From positions 1 through 41,187 of IMG/VR virus record IMGVR_UViG_3300042396_000609: 41,187 nt of DNA; one strand, given 5' to 3'. Under the pieces are notes generated by a model. It saw only the letters and a program-made list of their open reading frames with translations. It was not told where the DNA came from and made no database searches. Of the stretch, positions 6,211-17,641 are shown one piece after another. This DNA comes from a virus. Each line of letters opens with the position of its first letter. Position 1 is the stretch's first letter. Made by a program: the position numbers and the translations under genes.

Positions 6211-6459
6211 GGCAACAACGGGCAACACTCCCGTAAATCATTGCAAAACAAACCCAAGAAAGCGACTTAAAATCCGTTTTCGCGAAAGCGGAGTGCGGGT
6301 TCAAGTCCCGCCGCCGGCAGAGTGCTTTGTGACGATTTGAGCTAGGTTTTATGCGGCTCGGCGGGTGTTTGGCTTTCAGAAACAACGGGCGGGAAGCGGC
6401 GGCTAGTGGAAGAAAGTAGTTGCGATTTCGGGCAACACGGGCAACAAGTCTGGGCAACA
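6210..6459 (+). repeat. Five GGGCAACA direct repeats flanking attP core (candidate integrase arm sites)
   Basis: GGGCAACA occurs at 6210-6217 and 6220-6227 on the left of the tRNA-like core, and at 6430-6437, 6439-6446 and 6452-6459 on the right, all in the same orientation. Spacing inside the groups is 9-13 bases, close to one helical turn. Short direct repeats on both sides of a core are the known form of arm-type sites for tyrosine integrases. The right group ends directly before the integrase ATG, so binding there could also repress int. The role is inferred. Confidence 0.6.
6262..6319 (+). other. attP: attP core: 3' half of tRNA-Leu(UAA)
   Basis: The sequence matches a tRNA-Leu from the anticodon loop to the discriminator base: loop with TAA anticodon (about 6267-6273), a long variable arm (CGC/GCG stem near 6281-6290), T-arm GCGGG-TTCAAGT-CCCGC (6295-6311) and acceptor strand CGCCGGC plus A (6312-6319). 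The bases left of the loop no longer pair with the anticodon stem, so the 5' half of a tRNA is absent. Temperate phages with tyrosine integrases often carry this kind of fragment, which restores the host tRNA gene on integration. It lies between the lysis genes and int. Confidence 0.8.
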
Positions 6460-6461
6460 GC

Positions 6462-7481
6462 ATGAGTGCCTTTCTTGTCAGTCCATACCCGCAGCGTCCC
6501 AGCACGCCTTGGAAGCTGACGATTCCACAGAAAATTTTTGGCAAGAGGATTCGCCGGTTTTACCGCACGGAGGCGGAGGCTTGGGCGGCGGGGCCGGGGC
6601 TTTTGGAGAAACTTCAGAAAGGTGGGACCGATTCGCTCGCGGAGGAGCAGGTGAGCGGCATGTCTATGAAATCCGCGGTGCGGGATTACATCGCCTCCAA
6701 GGTGGGCAGCTCGGAGCGGCACAGGGAGAAGTTGGAAAAAATATGTGGGGAGCTTTTGGATGCGTTCCCTGGCGCGGTGGCGGCGGTCACTCCGATGCAG
6801 GCGGCTCGGGTCTTTGGAAAGATTAAGGGCGCGCCGACGACGCGGGCGGGGTGGCATCGTTACGCCTCCGGGTTTTTTCGGTGGTGCGTGGATATGGAAC
6901 TTCTAGATCGGAATCCATTTCGCCGGGTGATTGCGCCGGAGGCGGAGAGTAAACGGTCACTGATCTCGGCGAAGGAACTGCGGGCGATTCTGGATGCGGA
7001 GATGAGCGACGCGCTTCGGGCTTGGTTTCTTCTCGGTGCCTTTGCTGGGTTGCGGTCCATCGAAGTCCATCGGATGCGGTGGGATGATATCGATGCGAAG
7101 ACGGGACAGATCGAGGTGCGGCGGGAGGTTTCAAAACAAAGCTCGGGCCTGCCGGAGCGCATCGTGGACTTCACGGAGCCGATGAAGAAGCGGAAGGAAT
7201 TTTTCAAAGGAAAATCTGGCCTGATCGTTCCTCCGAAATCGCTCCGCCTTTATCGAGAGCGTGAGGCGTTGATCGAGAGGCTGAATAACGATGGCGTCGT
7301 CCCGTGGGCCAAGCTACCCGAGAACGCCCTACGCCATTCTTTCGCCACCTACCACCTCGGACGGTGCCAGGATGCTGGCAAGACGGCGCATCAGCTCGGG
7401 CATTCTTCGACGGCTCTCGTTCTCAAGACCTACGCGGTGCCGTCTCGCAAAGCGGACTGGCGGGCGTGGTGGAGGGTTTAG
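6462..7481 (+). CDS. int: Tyrosine site-specific recombinase (integrase)
   Basis: The 339-residue product catalyses attP x attB recombination. The C-terminal catalytic domain shows Arg198 in AGLRSIEV, Arg291 in NALRHSFATYH, His314 in QLGHSS and the nucleophile Tyr324 in KTYA. The usual His of box II is replaced by Asn288, as in a known subgroup with 'NALRHSF'. Residues 1-60 include a basic arm-binding-like segment, and 70-170 resemble a core-binding SAM-like domain. I chose the ATG at 6462; an upstream in-frame TTG at 6420 would run through the GGGCAACA repeats. The neighbouring tRNA-Leu fragment supports the role. Confidence 0.93.
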   Translation: MSAFLVSPYPQRPSTPWKLTIPQKIFGKRIRRFYRTEAEAWAAGPGLLEKLQKGGTDSLAEEQVSGMSMKSAVRDYIASKVGSSERHREKLEKICGELLDAFPGAVAAVTPMQAARVFGKIKGAPTTRAGWHRYASGFFRWCVDMELLDRNPFRRVIAPEAESKRSLISAKELRAILDAEMSDALRAWFLLGAFAGLRSIEVHRMRWDDIDAKTGQIEVRREVSKQSSGLPERIVDFTEPMKKRKEFFKGKSGLIVPPKSLRLYREREALIERLNNDGVVPWAKLPENALRHSFATYHLGRCQDAGKTAHQLGHSSTALVLKTYAVPSRKADWRAWWRV

Positions 7482-7494
7482 GCGGTCAGGTCGA

Positions 7495-7824
7495 TTATTT
7501 CGCCTTGCCACCCTGGAGGGAGATCGCAGTTTGGTGAGTTGACAATCCACCATCGGAGGTCACGGATTGTGGGCGCACAATATTCGAAGACGAGCCCTGG
7601 GGGAGGGGCTGTTTCTTCGATTGGTGCCTCTCATAAGCTGCCCGGTAGTGGTAGTCCCACGCGAGCCTCATGCACTTACGGATGGCTTGAGATGGAACCA
7701 TGTCGGTCTGGTTCACTTCAAATTCGTAGCGGATGATTTTGGCTAAAATATCTTGGCACTCCGGGGTCAAAGAGACGCCCGGTTTTTTCACTTTTTCACT
7801 GTCTGGTTTTTTGTGCCGACCCAC
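7495..7824 (-). CDS. Leftward RHH-like putative regulator at the lysogeny switch
   Basis: This is the only convincing gene on the minus strand. From a GTG at 7824 it gives about 109 residues (VGRHKKPDSEKV...); a TTG at 7866 would give 123. Residues around 15-60 read as a strand (PGVSLT) followed by two helices (PECQDILAKIIRYE and SQAIRKCMRLAWDY), the pattern of a ribbon-helix-helix DNA-binding protein, with a polar tail. It is transcribed away from the early genes and shares a control region of GTGCAC sites with the gene at 8012. A prophage repressor or anti-repressor role is plausible but inferred. Confidence 0.6.
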   Translation of the reverse strand: MGRHKKPDSEKVKKPGVSLTPECQDILAKIIRYEFEVNQTDMVPSQAIRKCMRLAWDYHYRAAYERHQSKKQPLPQGSSSNIVRPQSVTSDGGLSTHQTAISLQGGKAK

Positions 7825-8011
7825 AACGAAAACAATGTCAGCGAATAGGTGCACCCTTGCAACCAATTATTTTTTTTCGGTGCACAAAAAAATATTTTCG
7901 CCCGCAAACCTTGTCCCCATGCGGATGTCAATAGAAATCTTCGTATGGGGAGAACACCCCATTGACTTTTTTTTATTGATAAAAGTGCACCGAAATAAAA
8001 AAGTGCACCGC
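7825..8011. promoter_or_regulatory. Divergent control region with four GTGCAC operator-like sites
   Basis: This AT-rich stretch separates the leftward and rightward regulator genes. GTGCAC occurs at 7849-7854, 7880-7885, 7985-7990 and 8003-8008. The sites at 7875-7885 (TTTCGGTGCAC) and 7985-7995 (GTGCACCGAAA) are perfect 11-bp inverted copies, so two sites flank each side. A further dyad ATGGGG/CCCCAT (7945-7962) lies in the centre, nested inside GTCAAT/ATTGAC. The last site ends three bases before the ATG at 8012. The layout fits operators of a bidirectional switch; no convincing -35/-10 pair was placed. Confidence 0.6.
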
Positions 8012-8173
8012 ATGACAGCGAGCAACAAAAAACAGGGAGCGTGTTTCCCGATTGATCTCTGGCAGGAGATCAAGCGGGAAGCTGAAGCAAACGACACGAC
8101 ACTGAGCAAAGTGATCGTTCAAGCGGTCCGCGAAATGGTGGATCGGAAAAACAAACGGAGGGCGAAGAAATGA
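8012..8173 (+). CDS. Ribbon-helix-helix DNA-binding protein (CopG/Arc-like)
   Basis: The product has 53 residues. It shows the short RHH plan: strand (GACFPID), helix A (LWQEIKREAEAND), turn, helix B (TLSKVIVQAVREMVD) and a basic tail (RKNKRRAKK). Such proteins bind operators as dimers of dimers. The start is the ATG at 8012, because the upstream extension runs through the AT-rich operator region. No Shine-Dalgarno is present and a GTGCAC site almost touches the start codon, which suggests autoregulation. It overlaps the excisionase-like gene by ATGA. It could be the early repressor (Cro-like); this is inference. Confidence 0.75.
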   Translation: MTASNKKQGACFPIDLWQEIKREAEANDTTLSKVIVQAVREMVDRKNKRRAKK

Positions 8174-8403
8174 ACCTTTCCGATGTTTACATAGACATGC
8201 ACGAGGCTCAGCGCCTCACGGGTTTTTCCAGCCGCTCGATCCGCGACTACATCAAGCGAGGCGAGTTCTGCGCCTCGATGCCACGCGGCCGGTGCGGTGG
8301 CTGGCACATCGTCAGGGAATCCTTCCTCGACTGGTGGGGTTATCGGAACGCCTCCACCGCGAATCGCACGACGGTCCCAGCACGCAAAAGGAGGGCCGCG
8401 TAA
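8170..8403 (+). CDS. Excisionase-like / MerR-type helix-turn-helix protein
   Basis: The product has 77 residues. It reads MHEAQRLTGFSSRSIRDYIKRGEF...GGWHIVRESFLDWW, the helix-turn-helix plan of HTH_17 excisionase-like proteins: a MerR-type winged helix where 'R.....R..FLDW' follows the wing. The C-terminal tail is Arg-rich. Proteins of this type bend DNA at attP to direct excision or act as small regulators. It is coupled to the RHH gene before it and, through TAATG, to the next gene, and lies about 0.7 kb from int. Xis function is likely but not proven. Confidence 0.7.
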   Translation: MNLSDVYIDMHEAQRLTGFSSRSIRDYIKRGEFCASMPRGRCGGWHIVRESFLDWWGYRNASTANRTTVPARKRRAA

Positions 8404-11475: not shown

Positions 11476-12945
11476 ATGCAATCGATCATAATCGACCCAG
11501 AGTTCAAGGCGCTAATCCCCCCGTTAGCGCCTGACGAACTCAGCCAACTGGAAGCCAACATTCTGCGCGATGGGTGCCGCGACCCGCTGGTGGTGTGGAC
11601 GGTTCCGCCTGATGAAAGCGAATTTGAACCAGAAGAACTAACCGGGAGACTTTTAACAGAAGAAGAAATTGAGGAATCTGTTGGTGATGTCTGTATGGGT
11701 TGGCAGGCCGAATTTATAGCCAGAAGCGGGAAGTTTGCTTTTGTTCGCTACCGCAACCCATCGGATGAATACATGCAAGACTGGCGCAATTCTTGGGTGC
11801 TTGGCGTTGAAGGACCAGATGCGGGTTTTTTGGAACCCAACGGTGAAATTCTGATCGACGGACACAACCGCCACGAGATTTGCACGCGCCATGGCGTTTC
11901 GTTTGAGACGGTGCAAATGCCTCACGCCGACAGATCAGAGGCTCTTGTGTGGATTATCCGAAACCAATTCGGCCGGCGAAATCTCCCGGCTTATGAGAGG
12001 GCAAGGCTGGCACTCAAGATGAAAAAGCTGATTGCCTCGCGAGCAAAGCTAAATCAATCCGAAGGCGGTGGTGGCGGCATAGCAGGTTGTCAGAAATCTG
12101 ACAAAGTGGTCGATCATATCGACACTAAGCGCGAACTCGCCGAAATGGCCGGGGTATCACATGATACCATCGCCAAGGTTGAGAAGATCGAAGAGAGAGC
12201 AACTCCGCAAGTTAAAGCCAAGCTGGCGAGCGGAGAAATTAGCATCAACCAAGCGCACAAGGACATCGTTAAAGAAGAGAAGCGGGAAGAAAAGCAGCAA
12301 AAGCTCCGCAACGCGGTTGAAGAAATCGCGAGCACTCCTGACTTTCTGTCCGTCTGCGACATCAGGGCTTGCTCGATGGCGGATTTATTCCAAGGCATTG
12401 AGCATCTTGACGCGGTTGTAACAGACCCGCCCTACCCAGAGGAGTTTTTGCCGCTGTATGAAGAGCTGGCAAGGCACTGCGCGAAAATTGGCGTGAAGGT
12501 GGTTGCGGCCATGGCAGGGCAGAGCTACCTGCCGCAAATCTACGCGGCCATGAGCAAACACCTGAAATATCGGTGGACGCTCGCCTACATGACGCCAGGC
12601 GGCCAAGCGGTTCAGCAATGGCAGGCGAAGGTCAACACATTCTGGAAGCCGATTCTGTTATTCGGTGAAGCAGACGAATGGTTTGGCGATGTCGCCATAA
12701 GCAAGGTGAACGACAACGACAAGCGGTTTCACGGTTGGGGCCAATCCGAGAGCGGAATGGTCGATCTGGTTGATCGGCTAACCAAGCCAGGAGACCTGAT
12801 TTGCGATCCGTTTGTTGGAGCCGGAACAACGGCGGTTGCGGCTCTCGCTTTGGGCCGTCGATTCATCGGATGCGACATTGATCCGTTTCATGCGGAAACC
12901 GCAAAGGCCCGTGCATTGCAAGCATTTTCACAATTAAAAAAATGA
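11476..12945 (+). CDS. ParB-like nuclease domain fused to DNA adenine/cytosine-N4 methyltransferase
   Basis: The product has 489 residues. Residues 1-160 form a ParB/Srx-like domain (ILIDGHNRHEICTRHG is the conserved GHxR motif), followed by a KorB-like HTH region (REL AEMAGVSHDTIAKVEKI around 220-240). From about 290 on is a beta-class methyltransferase: DPPY at 317-320 (motif IV) precedes FVGAGTT at 446-452 (AdoMet-binding motif I). No restriction partner is nearby, so it is an orphan enzyme that may protect phage DNA or mark regulatory sites. Parts of the N-terminal half (11630-12350) are more AT-rich than the neighbours. Confidence 0.88.
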   Translation: MQSIIIDPEFKALIPPLAPDELSQLEANILRDGCRDPLVVWTVPPDESEFEPEELTGRLLTEEEIEESVGDVCMGWQAEFIARSGKFAFVRYRNPSDEYMQDWRNSWVLGVEGPDAGFLEPNGEILIDGHNRHEICTRHGVSFETVQMPHADRSEALVWIIRNQFGRRNLPAYERARLALKMKKLIASRAKLNQSEGGGGGIAGCQKSDKVVDHIDTKRELAEMAGVSHDTIAKVEKIEERATPQVKAKLASGEISINQAHKDIVKEEKREEKQQKLRNAVEEIASTPDFLSVCDIRACSMADLFQGIEHLDAVVTDPPYPEEFLPLYEELARHCAKIGVKVVAAMAGQSYLPQIYAAMSKHLKYRWTLAYMTPGGQAVQQWQAKVNTFWKPILLFGEADEWFGDVAISKVNDNDKRFHGWGQSESGMVDLVDRLTKPGDLICDPFVGAGTTAVAALALGRRFIGCDIDPFHAETAKARALQAFSQLKK

Positions 12946-15901: not shown

Positions 15902-16110
15902 GCAAACGCAAAAAGCCACGATTCGGCAAACACGGCAAGATCGTCCAAGAGGTGGCGGGCTTCCGCGAGTTTCGAGAAGCCTGGCTCGCTAACATGCTGG
16001 AAGAAATGTCCGCCGCCTGTGATCGCTTTTGGGCCAAGACGCCCGAACGACGGAAGATCGAGGCCTCACGCCAACGCTCGGGATTCAACTACGGGAACTC
16101 TCATGAATAA
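15898..16110 (+). CDS. Small basic protein, unknown
   Basis: The product has 70 residues, basic at the N-terminus (SKRKKPRFGKHGK) with a central helix (FREFREAWLANMLEEMSAACDRFWAK). It overlaps the resolvase stop (ATGA) and the next start by eight bases. No family is recognised. Nucleic-acid binding is possible from its charge, but this is not shown. Confidence 0.5.
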   Translation: MSKRKKPRFGKHGKIVQEVAGFREFREAWLANMLEEMSAACDRFWAKTPERRKIEASRQRSGFNYGNSHE

Positions 16111-16606
16111 CACCTTCACCGCAAGAAACGGCGAGCCTGCCTATATGCCAGACTACGACCTCGACACCCCCGAGGACACGCTCGCCGATGAACTCGGCAC
16201 GACGCCCGCCGTGGCCCGCAAGGTCATTGCGATGCTCCAGGCCGCCGAGGTTCGCCAGCAGGCGTTGACCCTTGGCAAGGTCGTCGGGCTATTGCTCGAG
16301 ACAAACAACCTCCCCGTCATGGCGAACGCCATCGCTTTCGCGGCCGGCCTCGACCAGCTCAACGGCAAGATGTCGCAGGCTCAAGTGGCTCGGGAGCTGG
16401 GCGTCACCAGGGCGCTCGTGAGCCATTACACGGTCGGCGTGCGCGATGTCCTCAGCGGCAAGCGCGACACATTCGACTGCACGAAGTTCCGCAAACGAAA
16501 CTCCTCCAGAGAAACCTTCCGGGCGAAAGCCACGGATCCACACACGGCCGCCAAGTCGGCAGCCATTGCCAGATACAGAGCATCACTCAAAACCACAACA
16601 CCATGA
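16103..16606 (+). CDS. HTH-containing protein, possible late regulator
   Basis: The product has 167 residues. Residues 85-115 (NGKMSQAQVARELGVTRALVSHYTVGVRDVLSG) form a clear helix-turn-helix with S-Q-A-Q-V-A in the first helix and R-A-L-V-S-H in the recognition helix. The N-terminal half (ADELGTTPAVARKVIAMLQAAE) has a second helical region. The C-terminus is basic. I start at ATG 16103. Its position near the end of the early block, before the packaging genes, makes a transcriptional switch role possible; this is inference. Confidence 0.6.
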   Translation: MNNTFTARNGEPAYMPDYDLDTPEDTLADELGTTPAVARKVIAMLQAAEVRQQALTLGKVVGLLLETNNLPVMANAIAFAAGLDQLNGKMSQAQVARELGVTRALVSHYTVGVRDVLSGKRDTFDCTKFRKRNSSRETFRAKATDPHTAAKSAAIARYRASLKTTTP

Positions 16607-17031: not shown

Positions 17032-17414
17032 ATATATCCACTAAAAAACTGGAAGCCTTAAACAAAGGCAAATCAAGATACAGGGAAAGCTGCATGGAAT
17101 TATCACAAGCAAAAGGCACTATTGAGCAGTATAAAAATGATTTAGCTGATTCTAAATTAGATAACAACAAACAAAAGACGAAAGAGTTAAAGCTATTAAT
17201 AAAAGATCAAAAGGCTCTTGTTGAGAAGATTCAAATAAGAAACCATCACGATAAAAGGGAGTTACTAGATTTAATCCGAGATTGTGAGGCTGAAATACCT
17301 GACAGAGTTTTACACGCAAAGTCAGACAGCGGCATGGGCCGATTCGATTCTTATGGCGGTATTAGATCAAACATAAGCAACAGGTTTTCTGATTTTGATT
17401 TAGTCAATCCATGA
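17028..17414 (+). CDS. AT-rich coiled-coil protein, likely recent acquisition
   Basis: The product has 128 residues and is almost entirely helical and charged (TKKLEALNKGKSRYRE, then DNNKQKTKELKLLIKDQKAL), with a polar C-terminus (GMGRFDSYGG). Its codon use (AAA, TTA, GAT, ATA) is far more AT-rich than both neighbours, yet it overlaps them exactly by ATGA on both sides. It looks like an insert that kept operon coupling. No family is recognised. Confidence 0.65.
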   Translation: MNISTKKLEALNKGKSRYRESCMELSQAKGTIEQYKNDLADSKLDNNKQKTKELKLLIKDQKALVEKIQIRNHHDKRELLDLIRDCEAEIPDRVLHAKSDSGMGRFDSYGGIRSNISNRFSDFDLVNP

Positions 17415-17641
17415 CCTGCCCAACCTGTGGCACCGACACCCGCGTCATTGCCACCCGCGAAGGTTACAGGCGCAGACTATGCAAGGACGGCCATCGATTC
17501 GTAACCCTTGAACAGGCGCACGAAACGAAATTCCCATGGCTATCCAAACCCAAGCGCAAGCCATTGAAGAAGAAAAAGAAAACAAAGCAGGACGACAAAT
17601 GGATCGAGCGCATCAACGCCAAGCTCGCCGAGCCAACATGA
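17411..17641 (+). CDS. NrdR-like zinc-ribbon protein
   Basis: The product has 76 residues. The start MTCPTCGTDTRVIATREGYRRRLCKDGHRFVTLE follows the NrdR zinc-ribbon plan: CxxC (Cys3, Cys6), an Arg-Arg-Arg turn, a third Cys (24) and 'GHRFVTLE' where NrdR has 'C..RF.T.E'; His28 may replace the fourth ligand. There is no ATP-cone, so it is not a nucleotide sensor. A Lys-rich linker and short helix follow. It is the last gene before the packaging block and may act as a small DNA-binding regulator. Confidence 0.65.
   Translation: MTCPTCGTDTRVIATREGYRRRLCKDGHRFVTLEQAHETKFPWLSKPKRKPLKKKKKTKQDDKWIERINAKLAEPT

Follow-up and report, generated by a model that had tools for sequence, protein, structure and literature searches.

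Between the integrase gene and the excisionase-like gene of an environmental virus lies a region that we read as an exchangeable, CI/Cro-like immunity cassette governing lysis and lysogeny in a temperate tailed phage. The cassette would comprise two divergently encoded ribbon-helix-helix (RHH) proteins that recognize the same operators, a reading to which we give a probability of about 70%. In its fuller form, this reading takes the RHH proteins to be paralogs in competition for a single set of operators, forming a primary, stand-alone switch that arose independently of HTH repressors and has diversified into some ten or more specificities; we favor this form too, with somewhat less confidence. 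We infer DNA binding, promoters, protein roles and lysogeny, and draw lysogeny control from the integrase, the CI/Cro-like geometry and the swapping of immunity types.

Palindromes and RHH genes beside the integrase

The window analyzed spans an entire IMG/VR virus record (41,187 bp). It encodes a terminase, portal, protease, capsid, tape measure, endolysin, DnaB-like helicase, Sak4-like protein, exonuclease and integrase. The features of the candidate cassette, hereafter type A, and of the two genes on either side of it are collected in Table 1.

Table 1. Coordinates of the candidate cassette and flanking genes in the window
Feature	Position	Strand	Description	Basis or remark
Tyrosine integrase	6420..7481	+	Convergent with left RHH gene; flanks cassette	PHROG 1, E=3e-31
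Left RHH-like regulator	7495..7824	-	109 aa, GTG start; proposed maintenance repressor (CI-like role)	Motifs, position, relatives
Putative operator OL1	7849..7854	.	AGGTGCACC	Invariant across 13 divergent type-A loci
Putative operator OL2	7880..7885	.	C[GA]GTGCAC	GTGCAT (decayed) in L066
Conserved core	7901..7968	.	CCCGCA-N11-ATGCGGRTGTCAA...CACCCCATTGAC	Common to nearly all types, not C
Putative operator OR1	7985..7990	.	AGTGCACC	Site search and type-A locus alignment
Putative operator OR2	8003..8008	.	GTGCACCGC-ATG	18 bp from OR1; abuts RHH start codon
Right RHH protein	8012..8173	+	53 aa, Arc-like; heads rightward early operon; proposed Cro-like role	Profile and model evidence
Xis-like HTH_17 protein	8170..8403	+	Adjoins right RHH gene	HTH_17 / excisionase PHROGs, weak

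The window contains GTGCAC four times and no more, and every copy lies between the leftward and rightward RHH genes, where the first-pass annotation had placed four sites. The total is not itself evidence, since shuffled sequences predict 7.8 copies; the evidence lies solely in how the sites cluster and in the comparative pattern. No other 6-mer with at most six copies packs four of them into 160 bp, and the chance that four randomly placed sites would lie this close together is about 2e-7. The 11-bp inverted pair described earlier is also real: its exact arms start 110 bp apart and extend to 16-nt arms (7870-7885 and 7985-8000) that are 94% complementary.

A repressor-driven lack of GTGCAC elsewhere is not supported. 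Many 6-bp palindromes are strongly avoided in the window and in loci L002-L049 (GGGCCC, 1 copy vs 43 expected; CTGCAG, 4 vs 75), which suggests pressure from host restriction. Because this avoidance is family-wide, the absence of GTGCAC elsewhere is by itself no evidence about a repressor.

The right protein belongs to a known fold family. It matches PHROG 6506, an Arc-like repressor family (E=6e-8), and a profile built from 11 sequences, the protein and its relatives, matches P22 Arc (E=6.6e-5), bearing out the earlier call of a rightward RHH gene. Its AlphaFold model (pLDDT 84.5) contains the two RHH helices (14-27 and 31-52), and its Foldseek neighbors CdbA, MatP and Arc score probabilities of 0.9-0.99 with modest E-values (0.08-0.3). 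Both hallmarks of the RHH (MetJ/Arc) superfamily, a short beta-strand of alternating DNA-contact residues with two helices after it and homology to Arc/CopG, are present. A search of 50,697 phage records with the right RHH protein and the cassette DNA returned zero matches.

The left protein is placed by other means. Its layout comprises an N-terminal GRxKK motif, a strand-like KPGVSL segment, two helices and a disordered C-terminal tail, and we put its start at the GTG at 7824 rather than at the TTG that opens the longest ORF. Profile comparison aligns it in register, weakly, with the right protein. Left proteins of other cassette types (C, E, E2 and N; Table 2) resemble RHH/Arc proteins, with weak matches in E, E2 and N, and the left and right proteins of type C are paralogs (43% identical). 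Alignment, position and these relatives suggest an RHH-like protein. The earlier description of the leftward gene as RHH-like holds for its relatives in other types, whereas family, PDB and fold searches with the type-A protein itself gave no significant match.

The C-terminal tails of left proteins (7495-7620 in the window, and in L009, L014, L034 and L040) are of low complexity and predicted to be disordered. They recombine independently of the RHH domains and are shared between types.

Family and profile searches found no CI-like or S24-type gene in the window. Two ORFs show traces of HTH_3, one at 16019-16606 that falls just below the cut-off (22.1 vs 23 bits) and one at 11476-12945 that matches very weakly, and neither occupies a repressor-like position. 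The claim that the window lacks a CI/Cro-type HTH protein is accordingly nearly right, if a little too strong in view of the sub-threshold match at 16019-16606. That protein is encoded midway along the rightward operon, ahead of the terminase genes, and is a possible second regulator. The ORF at 11476-12945 joins a ParB-like N-terminal part to a DNA N6/N4-methyltransferase C-terminal part. A small protein at 17411-17641 has a zinc ribbon resembling that of NrdR, at a score slightly short of the cut-off (E=8e-6).

Cassette exchange between integrase and Xis

If the GTGCAC sites serve the RHH proteins, the two should travel together, and related viruses indicate that they do. Scanning viral contigs for the Xis-like protein returned 50 loci, nearly all with Xis 83-96% identical; some carry GTGCAC at the same positions and most do not. 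GTGCAC is missing from the latter because a different RHH gene lies between the same neighbors, and at the corresponding positions every RHH type shows a repeated or palindromic motif of its own. Compared with types B-F of the same lineage, the window's integrase is 90-97% and its Xis 86-95% identical, whereas the left RHH domains are 9-26% and the right RHH proteins 17-36% identical, and the motifs differ.

The converse scan, with the type-A RHH protein, found 22 viral contigs (RHH 64-100% identical). GTGCAC stands at about -162, -132, -27 and -9 from the RHH start codon in 22 of 22, one of which, L066, has three copies and a decayed fourth (GTGCAT). The expectation that relatives would share the sites was therefore borne out in every contig with a type-A RHH, including those whose RHH is only 64-84% identical and is followed by an unrelated gene. 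Scanning IMG/VR with a DNA pattern for the double right-hand site, which contains no RHH coding sequence except the start codon, recovered exactly the same 22 contigs. Across four further type-A records (35-44 kb), a single GTGCAC copy falls outside the cassette. These comparisons show that RHH type is coupled to putative operator type and that the cassette is swapped between a fixed integrase-Xis pair.

Lineage statistics separate the cassette from its neighbors. Across 67 loci representing 22 distinct combinations, integrase and Xis lineages co-vary (1.93 of 2.03 bits, p=0.0005), and the type of cassette is independent of both (p=0.97). Five integrase/Xis backgrounds carry type A, and a single background has six types. 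Judged from these distributions, the cassette is exchanged freely, as lambdoid immunity regions behave.

The same statistics dispose of one component of the switch as first described. Xis lineage tracks integrase lineage and not RHH type; the Xis-like protein thus belongs to the integration module, and the role in the switch that the first-pass annotation had given it falls away. The HTH_17 protein is likely the cognate excisionase of each integrase lineage. An integrase with a cognate, co-inherited excisionase is what a temperate phage would carry, and the predicted integrase shows that the element can integrate; a scan of genome contigs found no integrated copy in a host genome.

They also bear on the idea that the GTGCAC clustering is incidental, or that the sites serve another factor, such as integrase or Xis at arm sites or a host protein. 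The region does lie between int and xis, and it contains a conserved core of unassigned role. The sites nevertheless track RHH type, and not int/xis lineage, across at least five backgrounds, and we regard this explanation as the least probable of those considered here.

A scan with the conserved core, which lies between the two groups of putative operators, gave 79 contigs. Their left and right proteins and motifs sort into the types of Table 2 and the one-RHH types G, H and I described below, all defined after some of the sequences had been viewed. About ten or more distinct protein-site specificities may exist among related viruses. The correspondence extends to single bases: between two type F loci, L138 and L153, the same base change appears in both left and right operators (CCAACATTG to CCAAGATTG).

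Table 2. Motifs and contact triads of two-gene cassette types
Type	Motif	Contact triads (left/right)	Site compared with triads	Remark
A	GTGCAC	KGS/KGC	GTGCAC	Type of the window
B	GGTAGCACC	KNS/KSS	GGTAGCACC	Motif of B and relatives
C	CAACAATT..AATTGTTG	SGS/AGS	CAACAATT	Without core
D	GGTAATACC / GGTATGACC
E	TGTGCACA	FAR/FGR	TGTGCACA
E2	GTGAGCACA
F	TTGGCAAGA or TTGGCAACA	TNS/ASS	TTGGCAA
M	TAGTAGC / GCTACC
N				Further type among core-scan cassettes
O		RTT/RSS		Further type among core-scan cassettes

The core itself combines an inverted repeat, CCCGCA-N11-TGCGG, with TGTCAA...TTGAC, and is kept across cassettes and integrase lineages. We presume it to be the divergent promoter region; no sigma-70 consensus match was recognized in the cassette region. 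A role as attP is unlikely, as phages with integrases no more than about 28-70% identical have the core in common. Reading its ATGGGG..CCCCAT hairpin as a terminator is rejected, the stem being broken in L066 and in type D. In L163 and L179 the core is present and our script recognized no right-hand RHH gene; L179 has a GGT..ACC-like palindrome after the core.

Host assignment draws on distant relatives. The nearest proteins of cultured phages are those of Akkermansia phages (terminase 35%, integrase 23%), which suggests a host among the Verrucomicrobiota. A host scan of genome contigs gave only a partial match, 50% over 38 residues, in a Pseudonocardiaceae MAG. On inspection, the two Akkermansia phages with these nearest proteins had no comparable annotated RHH pair beside int.

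Left-right matching and the proposed switch

We compared the predicted DNA-contact residues of left and right proteins within each type, taking the DNA contacts of Arc (Gln9, Asn11 and Arg13) as the reference for contact triads (Table 2). True left-right triad pairings beat shuffled ones (p=1e-5 with 12 types, 7e-5 with 9 types, and the best of 720 arrangements with 6), and helix A matches far more weakly (p=0.04-0.07). On the DNA side, type-specific motifs are common to the left and right arms (p=2e-5 with 15 arms, 0.002 with 8 types); both the contact-residue and the arm tests were framed after some sequences had been seen. Whole-domain similarity likewise favors the true pairs (p=2e-5), and common ancestry of left and right proteins therefore explains part of the triad match. 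Since triads and DNA arms both match within types, the two proteins of a type probably read the same operators.

From these elements we propose the following switch. In type A, RHH dimers would bind GTGCAC, with two sites before each gene. The left protein, product of the sole leftward gene, would keep the rightward early operon silent in the lysogen and regulate its own gene; the silenced operon would comprise the right RHH gene, Xis, recombination, replication and packaging. In several types the right operators directly adjoin the right gene's start codon, and RHH binding there would thus block initiation or early transcription. As the first product of the lytic operon, the right protein would bind the same sites and turn the left gene off, in the manner of Cro. 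Relatives would swap the whole unit, that is, left RHH domain, left operators, right operators and right RHH, and through the changed specificity phages may escape each other's immunity. The compact switch of RHH proteins and GTGCAC sites that the first annotation had put forward is strongly supported by comparison, through the co-travel of proteins and operators, the different operators of other RHH types and the left-right match, and is modified by the loss of its Xis component.

The roles of the two proteins could also be reversed. The right RHH protein alone might be an autoregulated repressor of the early operon, with the left protein as a modulator, antirepressor or heterodimer partner; this is a variant of the two-RHH immunity switch and not exclusive of it. 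The right protein is the better-recognized Arc homolog, and the disordered left tails undergo recombination of their own. Types G, H and I, moreover, retain only the right-hand RHH and a palindrome: each has one longer RHH protein and a single 13-bp palindrome (for example GGTTATAGTAACC) without a left RHH gene. Against this, a repressor encoded first in the operon that it silences would not easily give a stable lysogen, and in all two-gene types the left protein matches the right in its contact residues and has putative operators of its own. We consider role reversal doubtful, though the least improbable of the alternatives, and keep the left protein as the proposed maintenance repressor.

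Types G, H and I (L130, L152, L180, L181, L193, L159 and L172) share the core; their RHH proteins are about 59-91 aa long, and their palindrome takes the form GGT-N7-ACC before the RHH gene. They are a possible one-protein version of the cassette. Given these types, the predicted two-protein switch is not universal.

Comparison with known systems

Small RHH proteins acting on short palindromes at their own promoters are typical of CopG and of RHH antitoxins. That likeness, together with weak antitoxin and partition HMM matches, could indicate a toxin-antitoxin module, or a plasmid-type copy-number or partition module, with an RHH autorepressor. The pair described here differs in having two RHH-like genes, no toxin or replication-control context and free reassortment with phage modules. 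Both partners are RHH-like and no toxin family matched, the cassette heads the lytic operon between int and xis, and free swapping of specificity would be unexpected of such modules. We hold this explanation to be very improbable.

The immI region of P22 offers a phage parallel. There, mnt and arc are divergent genes with overlapping promoters, and Mnt and Arc use different operators; the antirepressor Ant targets a separate CI-type repressor. Mnt represses arc-ant, while mnt is repressed and ant moderated by Arc (PMC11016777); immI lies within the late operon, controls an antirepressor and counts as a secondary immunity region (PMC8022706). The resemblance would lie in two phage-encoded RHH repressors: a divergent pair is present here, its right protein Arc-like and its left one RHH-like by way of its relatives. 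In contrast to immI, the pair here stands between int and xis at the start of the early operon, and one set of operators appears to serve both of its proteins.

That the P22 pair constitutes only a secondary immunity region (PMC8022706, PMC11016777) raises the prospect that the RHH pair here is also a local or secondary regulator. It would then tune the expression of early genes or of an antirepressor, with another gene or a host factor as the true immunity repressor; the protein with the sub-threshold HTH_3 match at 16019-16606 would be an example. The genome argues otherwise. The cassette stands beside int and xis at the head of the one long early operon that runs rightward, the position expected of a main switch; the downstream gene is only Xis, with no ant-like gene downstream and no CI-type repressor found in the window; and the HTH protein lies mid-operon without a divergent partner. 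We judge a purely secondary role unlikely and retain the pair as the candidate immunity switch.

The archaeal fusellovirus SSV1 provides a second parallel. Its F55 protein, a 55-aa RHH, maintains the carrier state by binding repeated sites, asymmetrical and 11 nt long, at early promoters and at its own (PMC9608457). A small putative RHH regulator and repeated short sites are likewise present here. F55, however, is single, without a divergent RHH antagonist, and its sites are spread over several promoters, whereas the sites here are GTGCAC palindromes. In the open-access papers, which give limited coverage, we found no bacterial phage in which an RHH pair sharing operators acts as the main switch.

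In its proposed logic the cassette resembles lambda. As with CI, OR and Cro, a putative repressor gene and a divergent first lytic gene flank putative operators, probably shared, near the integration module. Lambdoid phages typically encode an XRE-HTH repressor, usually with S24; the window has only the sub-threshold HTH_3 match and no S24. The cassette differs from lambda in its RHH rather than HTH fold, in having no cleavable repressor, in operators that abut a start codon, and in an integrase located on the repressor side and convergent with the repressor gene. If the proposal is correct, environmental phages have re-created CI/Cro logic, in which two antagonists read one operator set, with another DNA-binding fold and have diversified it into immunity types. 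The matched RHH proteins and operators would form a natural data set for direct testing of an RHH recognition code, and the cassette would offer a way to recognize lysogeny modules where searches for HTH repressors find nothing. In lambdoid phages, immunity types are exchangeable among close relatives; diversification of the RHH cassettes would be mosaic in the same way.
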